Shown piece after piece: positions 55,259-64,000 of a stretch of 64,000 nt of DNA. How positions within the stretch are numbered: the stretch's first letter is position 1; each line of letters opens with the position of its first letter. Origin of the DNA: Streptomyces sp. NBC_00568 (lineage in GTDB: Bacteria > Actinomycetota > Actinomycetes > Streptomycetales > Streptomycetaceae); contig NZ_JAPENW010000001.1 in assembly GCF_026341855.1 (NCBI RefSeq), positions 806,001-870,000 of the forward strand. The letters run 5' to 3'. A program made the translations under genes and the position numbers. The notes under the pieces are model-generated. The model was not told the origin of the DNA. It searched no databases and saw only the letters and a list, made by a program, of their open reading frames with translations.

Positions 55259-55555
55259 CCGAGCGAGCGAGACCCCTCCCGAAGGCGGGACCCCCGAGCG
55301 AGCCCCCCTCCATCCCTCCGCTCCTCCCCCTCCCTCTCCTCCCTCCTGAAAATGCGCGCCGCGCAGCGAGGCCCTCCAGCAGCCCGGACTCCGGGCGCAC
55401 CAAGGACGGAATCCGGCACGCCGGAGTGGGGGCCAACCAGGCTCCCCCGGGAGGAAATTGACGCCCCGAAGGCGAAGACAGGCACATCGGGGCCCTTTCG
55501 GGGTACCCGGTGTCCGCCGGGAACGCCTCGGCGGACACGACACGAGGGGGCACTC

Positions 55556-55750
55556 ATGCCGCTCACCTTCCGCAAGAGCTTCCGCATCCTTCCGGGACTG
55601 CGACTCAACATCAACCGCAAGTCATGGTCCATCACCTCGGGCGGAAAGAACGGGCCGAAGCGCACGCACAGCAGCACCGGACGCAGGACGACCTCGATGG
55701 ACCTGCCGGGGCCGTTCGGCTGGCGCAAGACGACCCGTAAGGCAAAGTGA
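55556..55750 (+). CDS. DUF4236 small protein
   Basis: A 64-residue basic protein beginning PLTFRKSFRILPGLRLNINR, followed by KSWSITSGGKNGPKRTHSST. This is the DUF4236 pattern (a short beta-rich domain with FRKS, LPGLRLN and a Gly-rich turn), found in phages and bacteria and of unknown function. The ATG at 55556 has GAGGGGG 5 nt upstream, better than any other start. It stands alone between the aconitase control region and the XRE-MurA gene. Confidence 0.8.
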   Translation: MPLTFRKSFRILPGLRLNINRKSWSITSGGKNGPKRTHSSTGRRTTSMDLPGPFGWRKTTRKAK

Positions 55751-55979
55751 CCCAATAGCGACAAATAGCCCCAGCGCCGACGAACCGTCACGGAAGCGCC
55801 GCTTCACGGCACTCATCGGCGGCGACGTCGACCGCGGCACCCCCGGAACCGCCGCGACCGTCGCCGCCGCGCCGGGGCGCGAGGCCCGAACTCCCCGTCG
55901 GCCGGGCCCTGCTGGACCCGACCACCCGGAAGGCCGCGCTCCATTTCTTTTTATCTCACATCCGATATACGGTCGCGCC

Positions 55980-57509
55980 ATGGCAGACGACTACCTCGTA
56001 CGTATCGGCAAGCTCATCCGTGACGCCCGGCAACACCGGGGCTGGACACAGTCGCAGCTTGCCGAGGCGCTCGGCACCAGTCAGAGCGCCGTCAATCGCA
56101 TCGAGCGCGGCAACCAAAACATCAGCCTTGAGATGATCGCCCGAATCGGTGAGGCGCTGGACAGTGAGATCGTCTCGCTCGGCTATGCGGGTCCGATGCA
56201 TCTGCGCGTCGTCGGCGGACGTCGTCTGTCCGGCTCGATCGACGTCAAGACCAGTAAGAACGCCTGTGTCGCGCTGCTGTGCGCCACGCTCCTGAACAAG
56301 GGGCGGACGGTGCTGCGCCGGGTGGCCCGCATCGAAGAGGTGTACCGCCTGCTGGAGGTACTCGGGTCGATCGGTGTCCGCACCCGGTGGATCAACGACG
56401 GGGTCGACCTCGAGATCGTGCCGCCGAGCGAGCTGGACATGGAGGCCATCGACGCCGAGGCCGCCATTCGCACGCGGTCCATCATCATGTTCCTCGGCCC
56501 GCTGCTGCACCGCCTGGACGCCTTCAAGCTGCCCTACGCGGGCGGTTGCGACCTGGGCACCCGGACCATCGAGCCGCACATGATCGCGCTGCGCCGGTTC
56601 GGCCTCGACATCGCCGCGACCGAGGGGCTCTACCACGCCCAGGTCGACCGGTCCGTCACGCCCGGACGGCCGATCGTGCTGACCGAGCGCGGGGACACGG
56701 TCACCGAGAACGCGCTGCTCGCCGCCGCCCGCCACGACGGCGTCACGGTCATCCGCAACGCGTCCTCCAACTACATGGTCCAGGACCTGTGCTTCTTCCT
56801 GGAGGCCCTGGGCGTACGAGTGGAGGGCATCGGTACCACGACGCTCACCGTGCACGGCGTGCCGAACATCGACGTCGACGTGGACTACTCGCCCTCCGAG
56901 GACCCGGTCGAGGCGATGAGCCTGCTCGCCGCCGCCGTGGTCACCGAGTCCGAGCTGACGGTGTGCCGGGTGCCGATCGAGTTCCTGGAGATCGAGCTCG
57001 CGGTCCTGGAGGAGATGGGCCTCGACCACGACCGTACGCCGGAGTACTTCGCGGACAACGGCCGCACGCGCCTGATCGACCTGACCGTACGGCCCTCCAA
57101 GCTGGAGGCGCCCATCGACAAGATCCACCCGATGCCGTTCCCCGGCCTGAACATCGACAACGTCCCGTTCTTCGCGGCCATCGCGGCCTCCGCGCAGGGC
57201 AAGACGCTGATCCACGACTGGGTCTACGACAACCGGGCGATCTACCTGACGGACCTCAACCGCCTCGGCGGCCGGCTCCAGCTCCTCGACCCGCACCGCG
57301 TCCTCGTCGAGGGCCCGACCCGCTGGCGCGCCGCCGAGATGATGTGCCCGCCCGCGCTGCGCCCCGCCGTGGTCGTCCTGCTCGCGATGATGGCGGCCGA
57401 CGGCACCTCGGTGCTGCGGAACGTCTACGTCATCAACCGCGGCTACGAGGACCTCGCCGAGCGACTGAACTCGATCGGCGCACAGATCGAGATCTTCCGG
57501 GACATCTGA
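55980..57509 (+). CDS. XRE HTH-UDP-N-acetylglucosamine 1-carboxyvinyltransferase fusion (MurA-like)
   Basis: A 509-residue protein joining an XRE-type HTH (residues 1-68; GWTQSQLAEALGTSQSAVNR) to a complete MurA-like enolpyruvyl transferase. MurA moves enolpyruvate from PEP to UDP-GlcNAc, the first committed step of peptidoglycan synthesis. In the catalytic part SIDVKTSKNACVALLCATLL matches the Lys22 region of E. coli MurA, YAGGCDLGTRTIEPH carries the fosfomycin-target Cys (Cys190), and PPALRPAVVVLLAMMAADG carries the C-terminal Arg. All three are kept, so activity and fosfomycin sensitivity are plausible. The canonical Streptomyces MurA lacks an HTH; this is the second, conserved fusion copy. 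The ATG at 55980 lacks a strong ribosome binding site. Confidence 0.88.
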   Translation: MADDYLVRIGKLIRDARQHRGWTQSQLAEALGTSQSAVNRIERGNQNISLEMIARIGEALDSEIVSLGYAGPMHLRVVGGRRLSGSIDVKTSKNACVALLCATLLNKGRTVLRRVARIEEVYRLLEVLGSIGVRTRWINDGVDLEIVPPSELDMEAIDAEAAIRTRSIIMFLGPLLHRLDAFKLPYAGGCDLGTRTIEPHMIALRRFGLDIAATEGLYHAQVDRSVTPGRPIVLTERGDTVTENALLAAARHDGVTVIRNASSNYMVQDLCFFLEALGVRVEGIGTTTLTVHGVPNIDVDVDYSPSEDPVEAMSLLAAAVVTESELTVCRVPIEFLEIELAVLEEMGLDHDRTPEYFADNGRTRLIDLTVRPSKLEAPIDKIHPMPFPGLNIDNVPFFAAIAASAQGKTLIHDWVYDNRAIYLTDLNRLGGRLQLLDPHRVLVEGPTRWRAAEMMCPPALRPAVVVLLAMMAADGTSVLRNVYVINRGYEDLAERLNSIGAQIEIFRDI

Positions 57510-58025: not shown

Positions 58026-58346
58026 ATGCAGTTGATCAGTTTTCGCACAGCAGACGGCGGCGAGGCAGTGGTCGAAATCGCCGAGGACGAGCCAGGAATC
58101 GTCTCGGTCTCACGAGCCGGGGACGCCATCGCACAGGCAACCGGCTCACTGGAAGCAGGGTTCGACCGGATCCGCTCGGTGGCCCAGACCGCACTCGACA
58201 GGCTGATCACGCTGCCTCGGCCGCCAGAAGAAATCACCCTTGAGTTCGGCGTTCGCTTCAACGCCAAGGCAGGCGCTGTCATCGCCCATACGGAAGGGGA
58301 AGGACACCTGAAGGTCGCCGTGGTGTGGCGTAGCGCAGCAACGTGA
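58026..58346 (+). CDS. Trypco1-type trypsin-co-occurring small protein (CU044_2847 family)
   Basis: A 106-residue protein that starts with MQLISFRTADGGEAVVEIAE and continues through IRSVAQTALDRLITLPRPPE to ITLEFGVRFNAKAGAVIAHT and a final hydrophobic strand. This is the pattern of the small protein that accompanies trypsin-like proteases in bacterial conflict operons (Trypco1; often named CU044_2847 family). Its role is not known; a chaperone-like, inhibitor or adaptor role for the protease has been suggested. The ATG at 58026 has a run of seven Gs just upstream; an in-frame ATG at 57984 lacks any binding site. Its stop overlaps the protease start in GTGA. It has no TTA codon. Confidence 0.82.
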   Translation: MQLISFRTADGGEAVVEIAEDEPGIVSVSRAGDAIAQATGSLEAGFDRIRSVAQTALDRLITLPRPPEEITLEFGVRFNAKAGAVIAHTEGEGHLKVAVVWRSAAT

Positions 58347-59419
58347 GCTCAATTCCCCCTTCCACTCGTACACTTGGCACAGCTGGTGAACTCAGTTGCG
58401 GTGGCTCGGGGGAGACGAACACTGTGGGGCCGGAGCGAGGTCAGATGCGGGTGCTGTCCAAGGACGGCGCCCTGTGGGGAGCCGGCGTTCTGGTGACACT
58501 CGGCGAAATGGGAGCTCACGTCCTCACGTGTGCACACGTCGTCATGGACGCGATGGGCAACCCTTCGAGCGGGTCACTCGTGGTGGATCTGCCGGGACGT
58601 GACTGGTTCGCTCATGCATCCCCGGTGCCCGACGCCTGGTCACCTGTTCCGCCGCTCGCCCATACGGAGGCGGGCACCGCCACCGCAGACCATGCCGACT
58701 TCGCCGTGCTCGCCCTGGACGCGGGTCACCCTCGCCTCCCCGGTGGGTGCGGACCCCTGCCGCTCGCGGCGTGCGGTCCCCCGGATGACCGGCGGGTCGC
58801 GGTCATCGGCTACCCACAGGGCGCACCAGCCGGCCTGATCGCCACAGCTCGCCTGGCCGGGACCGGCGGCCCCTGCCCCGACTGGGTACAACTCGACGGC
58901 CTTCGCGCCACCGGTGGCACGGTGACCCACGGTTTCAGTGGCGCGGCCGTCTGGGATCCGGTCAGCGCCCGTGTCATCGGACTTGTCACCGCCGCCTACA
59001 CCGACCGCGCCGCCAGGGTCGCCTGGATGCTTCCTACCGAATCCGCTGTACGGATCTGGCCGCCTCTCACGGCCGCCGTCCGTCGCCCGCGGCCCCGACC
59101 TCACACCCCTCCCTCCGTCGACGAGTTGTACGAACTCGCAGACGCCCTCCTGGACGTGCCCCAGATAGCCCACGACTCAGGCCGCCTGCTCCGGGAGTCC
59201 CTCCCCCCGGCCATCCGCCACAACATCCGCGACAATCCCTGGCCGCGCCAACAGCTCCTCGCCGTCGTCCAGGCGTGCACGGACCACCGGGACGGCTGCT
59301 GCGCACTGCGCGGCGCGACACTGCAGCTCGGGGGTGAATCGGTGTCAGTTGCCCTGGCGGTGGGAATTCTTGACCGCATCTGCTGTGTCGGCGAAGTCGG
59401 TTCAAGGGGCGGTGCATGA
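58343..59419 (+). CDS. Trypsin-like serine protease with EAD2-type domain
   Basis: A 358-residue cytoplasmic protein; no signal peptide is visible. The trypsin-like domain (about 25-235) has the full triad: His65 (VLTCAHVVMD), Asp119 (ADFAVLALD) and Ser199 (HGFSGAAVWD). After a short Pro/Arg linker, an effector-associated domain of the EAD2 type follows (255-340; ELADALLDVPQIAHDSGRLL, then LLAVVQACTDHRDGCCALRG). In this class of systems EADs are thought to recruit the effector to the signalling NTPase by like-with-like contacts. The protease is the predicted effector, perhaps cutting cellular proteins once activated. GTG 58343 overlaps the previous stop by 4 nt and its TGA overlaps the next start by 4 nt. 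Confidence 0.86.
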   Translation: MSSIPPSTRTLGTAGELSCGGSGETNTVGPERGQMRVLSKDGALWGAGVLVTLGEMGAHVLTCAHVVMDAMGNPSSGSLVVDLPGRDWFAHASPVPDAWSPVPPLAHTEAGTATADHADFAVLALDAGHPRLPGGCGPLPLAACGPPDDRRVAVIGYPQGAPAGLIATARLAGTGGPCPDWVQLDGLRATGGTVTHGFSGAAVWDPVSARVIGLVTAAYTDRAARVAWMLPTESAVRIWPPLTAAVRRPRPRPHTPPSVDELYELADALLDVPQIAHDSGRLLRESLPPAIRHNIRDNPWPRQQLLAVVQACTDHRDGCCALRGATLQLGGESVSVALAVGILDRICCVGEVGSRGGA

Positions 59420-60921
59420 TCGATCCGAGGTCTCTAGCAGACAGTGCCCGCCGGGAACTGCCTAGGTATCTCGTCGACGCAGTACAACAACTGACCTGCC
59501 TGGATGATCCAGCGGCCTTGCGTCGGCTGGTGAGCAAGTTCGACCCGGCGCCGGCAGCCCCCAGCAGCGCGAGCGGCAGCACGCAGCGCGCCCAGTTGGT
59601 CCGGCTCATGGAAGGGTTGTGCGGTGCACCCGGCGGACTCACACCGATGGTGCAGACACTGGAAGTGTGGGAGGGAAGCACCGTCGCCGTCCTGAATCTC
59701 AAGATCGCCCTCGCGGCCTGGGAAGTCGACCTGTTCGCCTACGAGGAGTGGGAGGAGCTCTTCCGGCTGCTGGACGGGTTACGCGTGCCCGACCTCAGTC
59801 GGCAGTACGCCGACTTCCTTCGAGAGCACGGAAGGTTCACCTCACCCGCGCATTGCACCGAGCCCTGGGCGGTCTTTCTTCACGCCGCGACGCTCAACGC
59901 CCGCAGCGGTGAGCCCCTGCCGTGCTTCCAGCTCCTCCGTCGCCTGGCCCTCGCGGCCGAAGGGGACCGCCAATTCGCCATCACCGACTGGGTCGATGAC
60001 CACGACCCGCATTCCTCGCTGCCCGATGACGTCGAGCCCAAAGCCGACGAGCAGGAAGCCGCGGCCAGGGCGGACGTATGGAGCCCGTCGGACTACCTCA
60101 TCATTCGTCTGAGGCCGTTACTCGACGGCGATGGCGAAGGAACGACGATCCTCTCCCACTGGCGACGGGTGCACCCCGGCGGGCAGGTCCGCGGCGAGGA
60201 CCGGCGCATCGCACCAACAGACCTGGAGCAGGAAGTGCGAGCGCTGATTCACAAGGCGGAAAGCGACTGGGCCTACTTCCTCAAGGGCGAGCTCGCCATC
60301 GAGTTCGTGCTTCCCTGGGACCTTCTTCATCTGCCCGTGGAGAACTGGGAGAAGTCGTCGTTCCACGGAGTCGGCGCGGTGCTGGGCGAGGACCATCCGG
60401 TCGTCATCCGCAGCTTGGAGCGGCTTGACCGGCGCGACCTGCACGGTCGTTGGGGAAGAAGGTGGGACGCCTTCGCACAGAGGCGGGCGGGAAGCGCTCA
60501 TTGGTTCGCCTACGACAGTCTGGCCCATCTGCTCTCGGATCCCCCTCCGGCGGTGGCGGTGCTCAGTTCCGCTCCGGGCGACACGTCTCCGTCGGGGGAT
60601 TCGCCCCCTCACTCCCCCGACGAGCTGGGCGAGGCGTTGAGAGCGGGCGTCCCCGTCGTGTTGTGGGACAGACGAGGAGGCGGAGACCCCGACTTCCGAG
60701 CCGCGTTACGTGCCGTCCTGGAGAGCAGCGATCCCCGGCGACTGCCAACTCTGGTGAAATCCTTGCGCATCACGTCCAGGGACCGCGATTCTGAAGACCC
60801 CATGGTCGGCCGCCATGTAGCCCTGCTCTGGGACGACCCGTATCGACTACCCGTCGCAATGACGGACTCTTCCGCATCGATCAGGGACGGTTGGGAGGAG
60901 AAGAGTCATGACGCATCCTGA
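59416..60921 (+). CDS. VMAP-type (vWA-MoxR-associated) protein
   Basis: A 501-residue protein that I identify as a vWA-MoxR-associated protein (VMAP). The C-terminal part (about 225-500) has the recognisable VMAP-C features: LIIRLRPLLDGDG, WAYFLKGELAIEFVLPWDLL and WEKSSFHGVGAVLGEDHPVV, ending with PVVLWDRRGGGDPDF. The first 200 residues look like two helical EAD-like units (AVQQLTCLDDPAALRRLV and FRLLDGLRVPDLSRQYADFL with EPWAVFLHAATLNARSGEPL), able to bind the EAD of the protease. VMAP is thought to link MoxR, vWA protein and effector. It starts at ATG 59416 inside the protease stop, overlaps the next gene by 14 nt, and has three TTA leucine codons. Confidence 0.8.
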   Translation: MIDPRSLADSARRELPRYLVDAVQQLTCLDDPAALRRLVSKFDPAPAAPSSASGSTQRAQLVRLMEGLCGAPGGLTPMVQTLEVWEGSTVAVLNLKIALAAWEVDLFAYEEWEELFRLLDGLRVPDLSRQYADFLREHGRFTSPAHCTEPWAVFLHAATLNARSGEPLPCFQLLRRLALAAEGDRQFAITDWVDDHDPHSSLPDDVEPKADEQEAAARADVWSPSDYLIIRLRPLLDGDGEGTTILSHWRRVHPGGQVRGEDRRIAPTDLEQEVRALIHKAESDWAYFLKGELAIEFVLPWDLLHLPVENWEKSSFHGVGAVLGEDHPVVIRSLERLDRRDLHGRWGRRWDAFAQRRAGSAHWFAYDSLAHLLSDPPPAVAVLSSAPGDTSPSGDSPPHSPDELGEALRAGVPVVLWDRRGGGDPDFRAALRAVLESSDPRRLPTLVKSLRITSRDRDSEDPMVGRHVALLWDDPYRLPVAMTDSSASIRDGWEEKSHDAS

Positions 60922-62020
60922 CGACGGTTCGGCCTTACCGGGAGACAATCAGCACCCTCGTTGGTGGATCTACCGAGGGACACGGCTGCCGCGGGCCGAC
61001 TTCTCCCTGACCGAATTGCTTCCCCCGCCTCCTCCCTGGCGGACGTTCAGCGGTGGCCCGGTACTTCCGTCCCCGCCCCACGACGACGTGGAGACGTTAC
61101 GCAGGCTGGGCTCACATCTGCCGACCAGGACCGTTTCCGAGTTCGCCCGCCGCGAAGCGGAGATGGTGAACGCCGCTCTGCTGCTGCGCCGACCGCTGCT
61201 GGTCAGTGGGCGGCCAGGCACAGGAAAATCAAGTCTCGCCTACCGCGTCAGCCGCGAGTTGTGTCTCGGGCGCGTCCTGCGCTGGCACATCACCAGCCGC
61301 ACCACGCTGCAACGGGGCCTGTACGACTACGATGCGATCGGCCGGGTGCAGGACACCGCGGCGGCCAGGGCAGCCCTCGGGCAGGGGCCATCCGAGGGTG
61401 AGGACCCGACGGCTCTCGGGATCGGCGAGTACCTTCAACTCGGGCCGCTGGGCACGGCACTGTTGCCCTACGCAGAACCGCGAGTTCTCCTCATCGACGA
61501 ACTCGACAAGAGCGACCTCGACCTCGCCAACGATCTGCTCAGCATCTTCGAAGAGGGTTCTTTCACGATTCCTGAGTTGTTGCGCGCCCGGCGAAGGCAC
61601 CCGGTGGTGCGTGTCCTGACGAACGATCCGGAGGGCGAGGCCGAGATCCGTGGAGGGACGGTCACCTGCAATGCCTTCCCATTGGTCGTGATGACCTCGA
61701 ACAGCGAACGGGAATTCCCGCCGGCCTTCCTGCGACGTTGCCTGCTTCTCGAGATGCCCGACCCCAGCCAGGACGACCTCGCCGACATGCTGGCGGCGCA
61801 CTTCGGCGAGGAGACTGCCAGGCAGTGGGGCGGTGACCTCATCGCCAGGTTCCTCGAACGCAGCCGGGAACGCGGCGGCCTGTCCCGAGACCAACTGCTC
61901 AACTCTCTCTATCTGGCCACATCGGGCGGGGTCGGCGGCCAGGACGGCTCGCTGTACGAACTCGTCGAAGCGGTGTGGCATCGTCTCGACAGATCAAGGT
62001 CGGGGACGAAGCCGGGATGA
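60908..62020 (+). CDS. MoxR-family AAA+ ATPase
   Basis: A 370-residue AAA+ ATPase. Walker A is GRPGTGKSS (residues 101-109), Walker B is VLLIDELDKSD (193-203), sensor 1 is in VMTSNSEREFPPAF (about 262-273), and LRR at 275-277 is the arginine-finger position. MoxR proteins work as chaperone-like ATPases with vWA partners. The first 75 residues form a Pro-rich extension with no known domain. TTA codons occur at 60935-60937 and 61097-61099. It overlaps the VMAP gene by 14 nt and the next gene by 4 nt (ATGA), so the proteins are made together. Confidence 0.88.
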   Translation: MTHPDDGSALPGDNQHPRWWIYRGTRLPRADFSLTELLPPPPPWRTFSGGPVLPSPPHDDVETLRRLGSHLPTRTVSEFARREAEMVNAALLLRRPLLVSGRPGTGKSSLAYRVSRELCLGRVLRWHITSRTTLQRGLYDYDAIGRVQDTAAARAALGQGPSEGEDPTALGIGEYLQLGPLGTALLPYAEPRVLLIDELDKSDLDLANDLLSIFEEGSFTIPELLRARRRHPVVRVLTNDPEGEAEIRGGTVTCNAFPLVVMTSNSEREFPPAFLRRCLLLEMPDPSQDDLADMLAAHFGEETARQWGGDLIARFLERSRERGGLSRDQLLNSLYLATSGGVGGQDGSLYELVEAVWHRLDRSRSGTKPG

Positions 62021-64000
62021 CCAGCGCCGCGGATGAACGGCGTTCTTTCCCGTCCGGGCCGGAAATCCTGGACGCCCTGTACCTCACGGCGTATGTGGAC
62101 TCCGTCTCGCCGGCCCCGAGCACGAGCGACCCCCGCAGTACGTCAGACCCTCAGCGCAGCCCTGACACCGGAGTCAGTGACGACCGGGTCGCGCCCGAGC
62201 AGCCCGCCGAGCCCCACCCGGACAACACCGGTCGCTCTGACTTCACCGTCCGAACACGGGAGTCACGCACCCCCCACGACTCGAGGACAGGGAGTGGCAG
62301 TTGGCCTGCCTCGCCGCAACTGCCGGGCGCTCTCGGTCTGGCACGGGCGCTCAAGCCGCTGAGGTTACGTCGCCCATCTCCCCATGAATGGGAACTGGAC
62401 GAGGAATCCACTGCGGAGCGTGCCGCCTCTGACGGGCTGTGGCTGCCGGTCCGCCGTCCTGTTGAGGAGCGCCGCCTCGACTTGTGGCTGATCGTGGACG
62501 CCAATCCGTCCATGGCCCTGTGGCAGGACATCGTGCCCGTGTTCCAGGAGCTGTTGGAGAACACTGCCGTCTTTCGCGCGATCCGGACCACCCGGGTCGA
62601 CATGGCGGATGCCGGGCGTGATGCCCGTCTCCATGGAGACTCCGTCAATCGCCCGGAGCATCTTCAGTCCGGATCGGACAGTCTGGTACTGATCGTCACC
62701 GACGGAGTGGCCAGTGCGTGGCGCGACGGCGAGGCCGCCGCATTCCTCCACGGGAAGGCGAGAGTCTCCCCCACCGCCGTTCTCAGCCTGCTGCCACAGG
62801 AGCTCTGGGAGTTCACCCTTCCCAGCGCGTTCCGTGTCCAGCTGGCAGTCCCTCAGGCCGCCGCCGCCAACAGGACCTGCAGAATGGTGCGTTCGGCCGC
62901 TTCCTCATCCAGACCGGGCGGGCTTGCGCCCTCACGGTCCGGGCAGGCGGTACCGGTACCCCTGCTGGAATTGACGCCGGCATCGTTGGGTCGATGGGCA
63001 CGCCTGGTCGGATCCCCCGGTGGTCGACACAACTCGGCAGTCCTGCTGACCAGCAGGCGGGGCGATCTGGGGAGCCACACCTCACTCCACTCTGTCGAAT
63101 CCGACTCAGAGACGGACCTTGACGGCTCCCGCGCGACGTGGAGCTCGGGCACTCGACAGAGTGCGGCTCGGGAAGCAGTGCTGAGCTTCATGGCAAAGGC
63201 ATCGCCCACAGCCTTTCAACTTGCCTGCCGCCTGGCAGCCGCGCCCCTGAATCTTCCGGTCATGCGACTGCTTCAGCATTCCATGCCGGAGGCAGAGAAC
63301 TGGAATCTCGCTGAAATCATGTTGTTCGGTCTGCTGCACCGTATCAAGCCGGATACGGACGTGCAGGACATCGAGCAGGTAACCTTCGACTTCGCAGAAG
63401 GAGTCAGAGAAGAGCTGCTCGCTCTCGCCACCCGCTTCGAGACGCTGGGCGTTCTGCGTCAAGTCTCGGATGTTCTGGGCTCTCGACTGGATACATCCAC
63501 GGCTCAAGGGGACACCCTCTTGTCCTGTCGGGCGGACTATATCGATCCGCCGGTAACCCACCTGACCCGGCCATTCGTTCGACCATTGCAAGCAGCGCTG
63601 AGCGCCCTGTCAGGTCCCTACCTTGAGCGGGCACTCCGACTTGACAGTCTCTTAAGTCGCCGCGAGAGTTCCGGACAGCCGGAAGCGCAGTCGGATAGCA
63701 ATGAGGCAGAAGTGTCCACTGGACCACCTGTATCGGGACCCGACAGCGAATCCGCAGATCCGGAATCACGTTCTCTACCTGTTCGGGGAGAATTCATGCC
63801 CAGTGCCGAGAAGGAAAGTTCGCGGCAGATACTGTCAACTCAGCCTCAGTTCGGCGGCAATCTACCGCTGCGGAACCGGAACTTCACGGGCCGCGAAGAG
63901 CTCCTCGCCAAACTACGCCGGCGACTGGAGAGAGGCGTTACCACAGCCGTCCTCCCCGAGGCCTTGCACGGCATGGGCGGCGTGGGCAAGTCACAGATCG
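62017..64000 (+). CDS. SAV_2336-type vWA domain fused to STAND NTPase (FxSxx-COOH-system type); partial at right edge
   Basis: The frame is open from the ATG at 62017, which overlaps the MoxR stop in ATGA, to the end of the window; 661 codons are seen. Residues 1-125 are disordered. A von Willebrand A-like part follows (LDLWLIVDANPSM with Asp161 at the metal site, then DSLVLIVTDGVASAWRDGEA), typical of proteins named SAV_2336 N-terminal-related. A helical region runs to about 560. The final visible part (FGGNLPLRNRNFTGREELLA, then LPEALHGMGGVGKSQI, Lys658) is the start of the STAND/NB-ARC NTPase of TPR proteins assigned to the FxSxx-COOH system; TPRs should follow beyond the window. TTA codons are at 62365 and 63652. 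GC content falls in the second kilobase. Confidence 0.8.
   Translation, partial: MTSAADERRSFPSGPEILDALYLTAYVDSVSPAPSTSDPRSTSDPQRSPDTGVSDDRVAPEQPAEPHPDNTGRSDFTVRTRESRTPHDSRTGSGSWPASPQLPGALGLARALKPLRLRRPSPHEWELDEESTAERAASDGLWLPVRRPVEERRLDLWLIVDANPSMALWQDIVPVFQELLENTAVFRAIRTTRVDMADAGRDARLHGDSVNRPEHLQSGSDSLVLIVTDGVASAWRDGEAAAFLHGKARVSPTAVLSLLPQELWEFTLPSAFRVQLAVPQAAAANRTCRMVRSAASSSRPGGLAPSRSGQAVPVPLLELTPASLGRWARLVGSPGGRHNSAVLLTSRRGDLGSHTSLHSVESDSETDLDGSRATWSSGTRQSAAREAVLSFMAKASPTAFQLACRLAAAPLNLPVMRLLQHSMPEAENWNLAEIMLFGLLHRIKPDTDVQDIEQVTFDFAEGVREELLALATRFETLGVLRQVSDVLGSRLDTSTAQGDTLLSCRADYIDPPVTHLTRPFVRPLQAALSALSGPYLERALRLDSLLSRRESSGQPEAQSDSNEAEVSTGPPVSGPDSESADPESRSLPVRGEFMPSAEKESSRQILSTQPQFGGNLPLRNRNFTGREELLAKLRRRLERGVTTAVLPEALHGMGGVGKSQI

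Follow-up and report, generated by a model that had tools for sequence, protein, structure and literature searches.

A VMAP-type ternary system of Streptomyces with an adjoining peptide arm: a possible peptide-gated protease alarm

The operon and its continuation beyond the window

The stretch of DNA analysed here, which we call the window, comprises 64,000 nucleotides (nt) of Streptomyces sp. NBC_00568 (contig C4:806001-870000 of a 7.9 Mb genome). At its right-hand end lie five plus-strand genes of a VMAP-type ternary system, and just past that end are two genes of a putative peptide arm. Gene 1 (58026..58346) encodes a Trypco1 protein (trypsin-co-occurring domain 1; the CU044_2847 family) of 106 amino acids (aa), gene 2 (58343..59419) a trypsin-fold serine protease of 358 aa, gene 3 (59416..60921) the 501-aa VMAP protein, and gene 4 (60908..62020) a MoxR-type AAA+ ATPase of 370 aa. 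Gene 5 (62017..64000, continuing past the window to window-equivalent position 66321) encodes a vWA domain with the SAV_2336 N-terminal region, followed by NB-ARC/STAND and TPR regions. The genes overlap in turn by 4, 4, 14 and 4 nt (ATGA), with start and stop codons checked. Beyond the window the locus continues, with genes of the opposite orientation, as far as about 68416. The minus strand there encodes a 622-aa protein of the alpha-ketoglutarate (aKG)-HExxH-type peptide oxygenase family (L001:14325-16193, window-equivalent 66325-68193) and a 91-aa peptide (L001:16141-16416, window-equivalent 68141-68416) that resembles the precursor of a ribosomally synthesised and post-translationally modified peptide (RiPP). 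The enzyme gene is convergent with gene 5, with a gap of 3 bases between their ends, and its start overlaps the precursor gene by 53 bases.

A sequence-only reading of the window had listed these five open reading frames (ORFs) in this order and with these overlaps, and the ORF coordinates and codons bear it out. Its five family assignments are confirmed by Pfam and NCBIfam profiles, and the search against MoxR-VMAP-vWA families that it proposed found similarity (PF20028, PF07728, NF041121). Together with the gene order and the N-terminal motifs of MoxR, these matches support its filing of the operon with the VMAP ternary conflict systems described by the Aravind group. It had also seen a vWA-STAND fusion in gene 5; this is correct as far as the window goes, which truncates the gene, the full protein being vWA-STAND-TPR.

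The individual matches are as follows. Gene 1 is recognized by PF19493 (1.8e-25) and NF041216 (3.9e-18), and its start at 58026 is favoured over the ATG further upstream (57984) by the homologues, which begin near MQLISF. The protease matches Trypsin_2 (PF13365, 4.8e-12) and ends in an EAD2 adaptor (59138..59356, residues 266-338; PF19956, 4.1e-13). VMAP comprises a second EAD2 (residues 20-96; 1e-7), VMAP-M0 (108-204; PF19916, 5.6e-21) and VMAP-C (246-475, at 60151..60840; PF20028, 1.3e-47). MoxR matches AAA_5 (PF07728, 5e-9) with the Walker A and B boxes, GRPGTGKS and VLLIDE, intact as had been claimed, and the N-terminal motifs of VMAP-type MoxR proteins (WxhapG and PsWRxa) occur as WWIYRG and PPWRTF; with slightly looser patterns each is found in 61 of the 62 MoxR proteins of our own and the VMAP-anchored loci described below. 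The part of gene 5 inside the window matches SAV_2336_NTERM, the vWA part, at 1e-103, and also covers positions 1-41 of FxSxx_TPR. The full protein (1434 aa from the ATG at 62017, or 1448 aa from the alternative in-frame GTG at 61975) matches NF041121 over residues 29-505 (6.8e-103), a vWA domain with the N- and C-terminal extensions of its family, and NF040586 (FxSxx_TPR) over residues 630-1445 (2.1e-256; model positions 1-827 of 830). NB-ARC (3.1e-6) and TPR_12 (4e-51) matches and the STAND Walker A GMGGVGKS and Walker B LLVFDN complete the picture. The literal vWA N-terminal pattern [D/E]xxx[D/E]xxxa is absent here and occurs in only 17 of 63 vWA proteins, our own included, so that it does not discriminate.

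A HExxH gene and a small precursor thus lie close to an AP-ATPase-TPR fused to vWA. This layout class, a VMAP system with an AP-ATPase-TPR-vWA fusion and peptide-processing genes, has been described by Kaur et al. (2020, PMC7159879). As to the suggestion that the exact layout had not been studied, we found no experimental study of it in the open-licence literature searched; the class itself was already known.

The HExxH enzyme is paired with the STAND module

The enzyme matches TIGR04267 (aKG-HExxH-type peptide beta-hydroxylase) at 1.3e-39 (136.1 bits; cut-off 40), and its motif is HEVQH. H327 (48/52), E328 (49/52), H331 (48/52) and R360 (48/52) are conserved among the aligned enzymes, our own included; these counts and those for the protease below mix VMAP-anchored with enzyme-anchored loci, and at least one contig (L029/L053) is counted twice. 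Its sequence likely reads as that of an aKG-dependent peptide oxygenase. It also matches the FxsBH exception model below the cut-off (87.4 bits; cut-off 225).

How closely is this enzyme tied to the ternary system? We gathered 68 loci by way of VMAP and not of the enzyme, of which 58 were usable, the other 10 having been set aside for short length or for lack of a vWA match. A HExxH gene is present in 39 of the 42 loci that have STAND after the vWA and in 0 of the 16 that do not (Fisher p = 1.2e-11, which ignores relatedness; the loci come from related species and their independence is overstated). Enzymes were sought with one query in these loci and with few in the reverse sample below, so absence means undetected at that sensitivity; L111, in which STAND is weakly matched some 5 kb away from the vWA gene, was counted as lacking STAND. 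In 33 of these 39 loci the enzyme gene lies downstream and is read from the opposite strand; in the remaining six (L076, L079, L085, L086, L088 and L090) the strand is shared, and in L076, L079, L085 and L088 the HExxH gene lies upstream of VMAP.

The association holds in the reverse direction. With a threshold of 1e-15, 261 of the 392 genus genomes contain a match to the enzyme. Of the best 20 after our own, 18 have STAND and vWA convergent with the enzyme; the remaining two are L030, a stretch of only 5 kb, and L040, which has none. In a sample of twenty enzyme genes, hand-picked at about every sixth row among the matches listed, STAND is present in every fetched stretch (18 at E<=1e-80, with L158 and L163 weak), and vWA in 18. 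Some enzyme-anchored stretches are the same contigs as VMAP-anchored loci; the 39/42 and 0/16 counts use only the latter.

The same genome holds a second ternary system (G000:C4:4732000-4748000; L143), made up of Trypco1, a trypsin-VMAP fusion, MoxR and a vWA-kinase-BTAD protein. It provides an internal control, with neither STAND nor a HExxH enzyme within 16 kb. Given the two sets of counts and this control, the enzyme is near-obligately paired with STAND-bearing systems, and the peptide pathway appears to go with the STAND-TPR module and not with VMAP systems generally.

The precursor has a leader, SELIDLSDVRLDELG, and a core, PLCEGSIAPAC. By tblastn it matched the five closest loci (3e-12 to 7.5e-4), and its relatives were found by synteny. 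Within its own clade (11 precursors aligned) P-L-C and a second cysteine eight residues on are invariant, and over all pairs the changes at codon positions one to three are 0.365, 0.274 and 0.434, fewest at the second and most at the third. None of the 11 ends in FxSxx, RxD or an acidic C-terminus, as read by eye. Leaders share an SDLIDLSGVPLxELG-like sequence, and the cores vary by clade. Second-clade precursors have EEMRFVRGRRPDQ-like tails, and some of a third group (L038, L041, L044) end in RxD, as does one type of Kaur et al. (PMC7159879). The leader pattern picks out a precursor at the start of the enzyme gene in 14 of 20 enzyme-anchored stretches (L025-L035, L037, L039 and L043), and three more (L038, L041 and L044) have a precursor-like frame by eye; L036, L040 and L042 gave no clear precursor by either route. 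Frames with RxD ends adjoin VMAP-linked HExxH enzymes at L038 (SRPD), L041 (SRLD), L044 (QRFD) and L150 (SRFD). These ends, which are absent from our own clade, resemble the C-terminal ARMD at which the related enzymes PflC and PosC cleave (PMC12636437), and offer a lead. The downstream frames scanned, which do not cover every frame, contained no radical SAM or SPASM match and no MNIO or transporter partner.

The protease, its adaptor and Trypco1

The catalytic triad had been reported intact, and it is. Among 28 aligned proteases, our own included, no covered sequence lacks His65 (25/25), Asp119 (26/26) or Ser199 (26/26), the remaining sequences being gaps. In trypsin an aspartate lies six residues before the catalytic serine. 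The corresponding residue here is T193, and in the 26 covered sequences it is T, A, V, P, G, R or W, never Asp; because of this, specificity for Arg or Lys is not indicated by the sequence. Retention of the triad contrasts with the trypsins in effector position, which are nearly all inactive according to Kaur et al. (PMC7159879). A protease match was found in only 17 of the 39 enzyme-bearing VMAP-anchored loci, a query-limited count, and 7 of these 17 also have Trypco1.

Protease and VMAP both carry EAD2, and Kaur et al. (PMC7159879) describe domains of this type as coupling domains. Among the 120 VMAP homologues listed there are three protease-VMAP fusions, with one EAD2 stretch in P0028, one, below the cut-off, in P0032, and two in P0033. 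The distant trypsin-VMAP fusion of the second system has none. Fewer EAD2 copies once the two proteins are covalently joined would fit an adaptor role, with n=4 and P0033 keeping both. Of the earlier proposal that the protease sits in an EAD-linked complex, the docking is thus supported indirectly, by the shared domain and by natural fusions of which three of four have fewer than two copies; EAD2-EAD2 contact would dock the protease to VMAP.

Trypco1 is more variable. In our locus, as in L046 and L054, it is the first gene of the protease operon. Neither tblastn nor a motif scan found it in the close relatives L045, L047, L050-L053, L055, L056 and L063, and it is therefore not obligatory. In L057, L059-L062 and L066 it is divergent and adjoins the precursor and HExxH genes instead of heading the protease operon. 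Since its place depends on the locus, Trypco1 may serve either the protease arm or the peptide arm. Its predicted structure is poor, with a predicted local distance difference test score of 59.3.

VMAP-C has a predicted caspase-like fold

Structural prediction gives VMAP-C similarity to the CHAT/separase (caspase-like) fold. There is no His-Cys dyad, and no cysteine column reaches 30% of 102 sequences. Because it has no conserved cysteine, VMAP would be a dead caspase-like scaffold holding a live serine protease, if the predicted fold is correct. A hidden Markov model of CHAT scored VMAP-C no better than reversed controls (p = 0.46), yet above shuffled ones (p = 0.002), and a search of VMAP against Protein Data Bank sequences gave only chance-level matches (best E 0.15). 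A low-threshold alignment placed VLSxPP on LSACxT and AGVPVVLWDRR on AG..V..LW.V.D; the register shifted with broader alignments, and we therefore claim no correspondence of residues between VMAP-C and CHAT.

Distribution and genomic setting

VMAP relatives at E<=1e-20 occur in 20 of 150 genomes of the genus, our own included, and of the others only G087 and G017 are close. Besides its own entry, the closest VMAP homologues are from Actinacidiphila (79% and 78%). All 68 VMAP-anchored loci come from actinomycetes except for one metagenome bin. Five VMAP-C matches were found outside the genus; L171 is above the cut-off and L172-L175 are below it, and the frames listed for these four showed nothing recognisable. 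In the table of Kaur et al. (PMC7159879), 694 of 716 organisms with VMAP were scored as multicellular.

The GC content at third codon positions (GC3) is 0.71-0.78 in the cassette. Flanking genes pass a filter of >0.80 that no cassette gene passes (aconitase has 0.97), the flanking figures covering only frames that pass. The lower GC3 suggests lateral acquisition. VMAP had no match in a plasmid collection at E 1e-15, giving no sign of plasmid carriage there. Scans for promoters and terminators gave nothing above chance. Upstream of the operon, a frame at 55458-57509 encodes a MurA-like enzyme (NF006873, 315 bits), the start of which resembles an XRE-type helix-turn-helix by eye.

A peptide-gated protease alarm

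What might such a cassette do? Our preferred interpretation, for which we see about as much chance of being right as wrong, is that this VMAP-type ternary system acts as a protease alarm gated by a peptide that the HExxH enzyme likely oxidises. Given the peptide arm beyond the window, the ribosomal peptide is the likely trigger. The enzyme would oxidise the core of the precursor, and the STAND-TPR part of gene 5 would read the peptide, its TPRs binding the core, with the oxidation state or the abundance of the peptide perhaps setting the threshold. The signal would pass through MoxR, vWA and VMAP to the EAD2-docked protease and switch it on, MoxR presumably remodelling the vWA-VMAP complex. 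The activated protease could then cut the system's own linkers or proteins of the cell, leading to death or arrest. Trypco1, perhaps an inhibitor fold, might restrain it.

Two views of the direction of signalling are to be found in the literature. In that of Kaur et al. (PMC7159879) VMAP is the sensor and the domains fused to vWA are effectors; for other ternary systems the variable vWA protein has been proposed as the sensor and the VMAP-linked peptidase as the effector (PMC10907252). Because the enzyme pairs with STAND, the latter view is favoured for this subtype, with the peptide as the probable ligand. A fuller version, which we put forward tentatively and think rather less likely to be true than false, makes the cassette a counterpart of the apoptosome. 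A dead-caspase-fold VMAP would dock a serine protease via EAD2, and an NLR-like STAND-TPR would read a PLC...C RiPP modified by the oxygenase. Since the modification needs iron, oxygen and alpha-ketoglutarate, the metabolic collapse of infection would be the alarm.

A number of observations weigh against the peptide-gated alarm. PADLOC-DB 2.0.0, searched with genes 1-4 whole and the part of gene 5 in the window, returned only short generic AAA matches of MoxR. The precursor has no match to an NCBIfam family and none in a search of a large protein set, and between it and its relatives the changes at codon position 1 come near to those at position 3 (325 against 369, over ten pairs). The leader is itself the search pattern, which makes its conservation partly circular. 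Moreover that pattern found a precursor in only 16 of the 39 enzyme-bearing VMAP-anchored loci; it missed L056 in our own clade, L057 and all 21 of the most distant loci, where the peptide linkage is thus carried by the enzyme alone. The counts therefore favour the enzyme more than the peptide. No enzyme was detected in the STAND systems L058, L098 and L107. For VMAP-C, profile comparison with CHAT was negative in three set-ups (hhalign probability <1%). L040 (15593-17362) has a HExxH gene with no ternary-system gene detected in a stretch of 20 kb.

The peptide could instead be the product of the system, a complex activated by an invader allowing the protease to cut the leader and so release an oxidised toxin or intercellular signal. 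We regard this as unlikely. The precursor does have a leader-like part and a separable core, a protease is encoded in the same locus, and a toxin or signal was proposed by Kaur et al. (PMC7159879). Against this, the downstream frames scanned offer no transporter, the arginine that precedes the core in L001 (RLA) is replaced in L049, L050, L051 and L053 (GLA or GLT), and the query-limited protease matches come from only the 17 of 39 loci noted above.

We give a similarly low weight to a regulatory role for the cassette in the development or stress response of hyphal bacteria, in place of one in defence or death. No phage trigger is known and PADLOC has no match, and the nearly exclusive restriction of the related loci to actinomycetes would agree with such a role; the patchy presence among related species and the atypical GC3 fit an accessory conflict system better.

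Cutting of the precursor by the HExxH protein acting as a metallopeptidase, the role that Kaur et al. (PMC7159879) give it, is distinctly improbable. HExxH is indeed a zincin motif, and PflC showed proteolysis without the leader (PMC12636437). However, the characterised HEXXH enzymes ChlH/ChlBH, BpmH, PflC and PosC are aKG-dependent and hydroxylate peptides, PflC and PosC also cleaving the backbone oxidatively (PMC12636437), and the very name of the NCBIfam model TIGR04267 is aKG-HExxH-type. Finally, the location of the HExxH-precursor pair on the opposite strand, outside the ternary operon, might make it a chance neighbour, a notion that 39/42 against 0/16, and 20/20 in reverse, leave with hardly any credit.

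Comparison with known systems

The closest relatives are the VMAP systems of Kaur et al. (PMC7159879), which share the VMAP-MoxR-vWA order, EAD2, trypsin, Trypco1, the AP-ATPase-TPR-vWA fusion, a HExxH gene and a small precursor. The PLC...C core is none of the FxSxx, RxD and acidic types printed there, and with none of 11 clade precursors having such a C-terminus the cassette counts as a variant of these peptide-processing subtypes and falls outside each of them. Their legend can be read as making peptide-modification genes and Trypco-trypsin pairs mutually exclusive, whereas both are together here. They call the HExxH protein a metallopeptidase and give VMAP-C no known fold, in contrast to the oxygenase reading and the predicted CHAT-like fold above.

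Other systems share single modules. The STAND-TPR half of gene 5 matches that of the FxSxx-COOH system (NF040586, with the radical SAM protein FxsB), from which our locus differs in having neither an FxSxx C-terminus nor a radical SAM/SPASM match in the frames scanned; searching the open-licence literature for the names FxsA and FxsB gave nothing relevant. With the aKG-HEXXH RiPP oxygenases (ChlBH, BpmH, PflC, PosC) the enzyme shares the TIGR04267 family and an adjoining small precursor, and is unlike them in being tied to the ATPase of a conflict system and not to a natural-product cluster. The fold predicted for VMAP-C is that of Craspase (TPR-CHAT/Csx29 of type III-E CRISPR) and separase; VMAP-C has no conserved cysteine, and the likeness was seen in predicted fold and not in sequence profiles. 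Apoptosome-like assemblies of Apaf-1 and NLR proteins combine a STAND ATPase bearing superstructure-forming repeats with adaptor domains and a protease. The cassette encodes the same combination and differs in its MoxR-vWA switch, its serine protease and its ribosomal peptide; such assemblies are discussed by Kaur et al. (PMC7159879).

That such systems have a ternary core and can have a peptide-processing partner was already known. As far as we have searched the open-licence literature, the new elements are the PLC...C precursor class, the enzyme-STAND counts, the interpretation of the enzyme here as an oxygenase, the predicted CHAT-like fold, and the presence of Trypco1-trypsin together with peptide genes. 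VMAP systems are widespread in multicellular bacteria, and the literature covered has not settled what triggers them, how VMAP-C folds or what the peptide genes do. Our counts link the enzyme of the peptide arm to the STAND-TPR module in particular, and a concrete precursor and core can now be named. If true, the prediction of a dead caspase-like VMAP-C would connect the VMAP systems to Craspase and separase.

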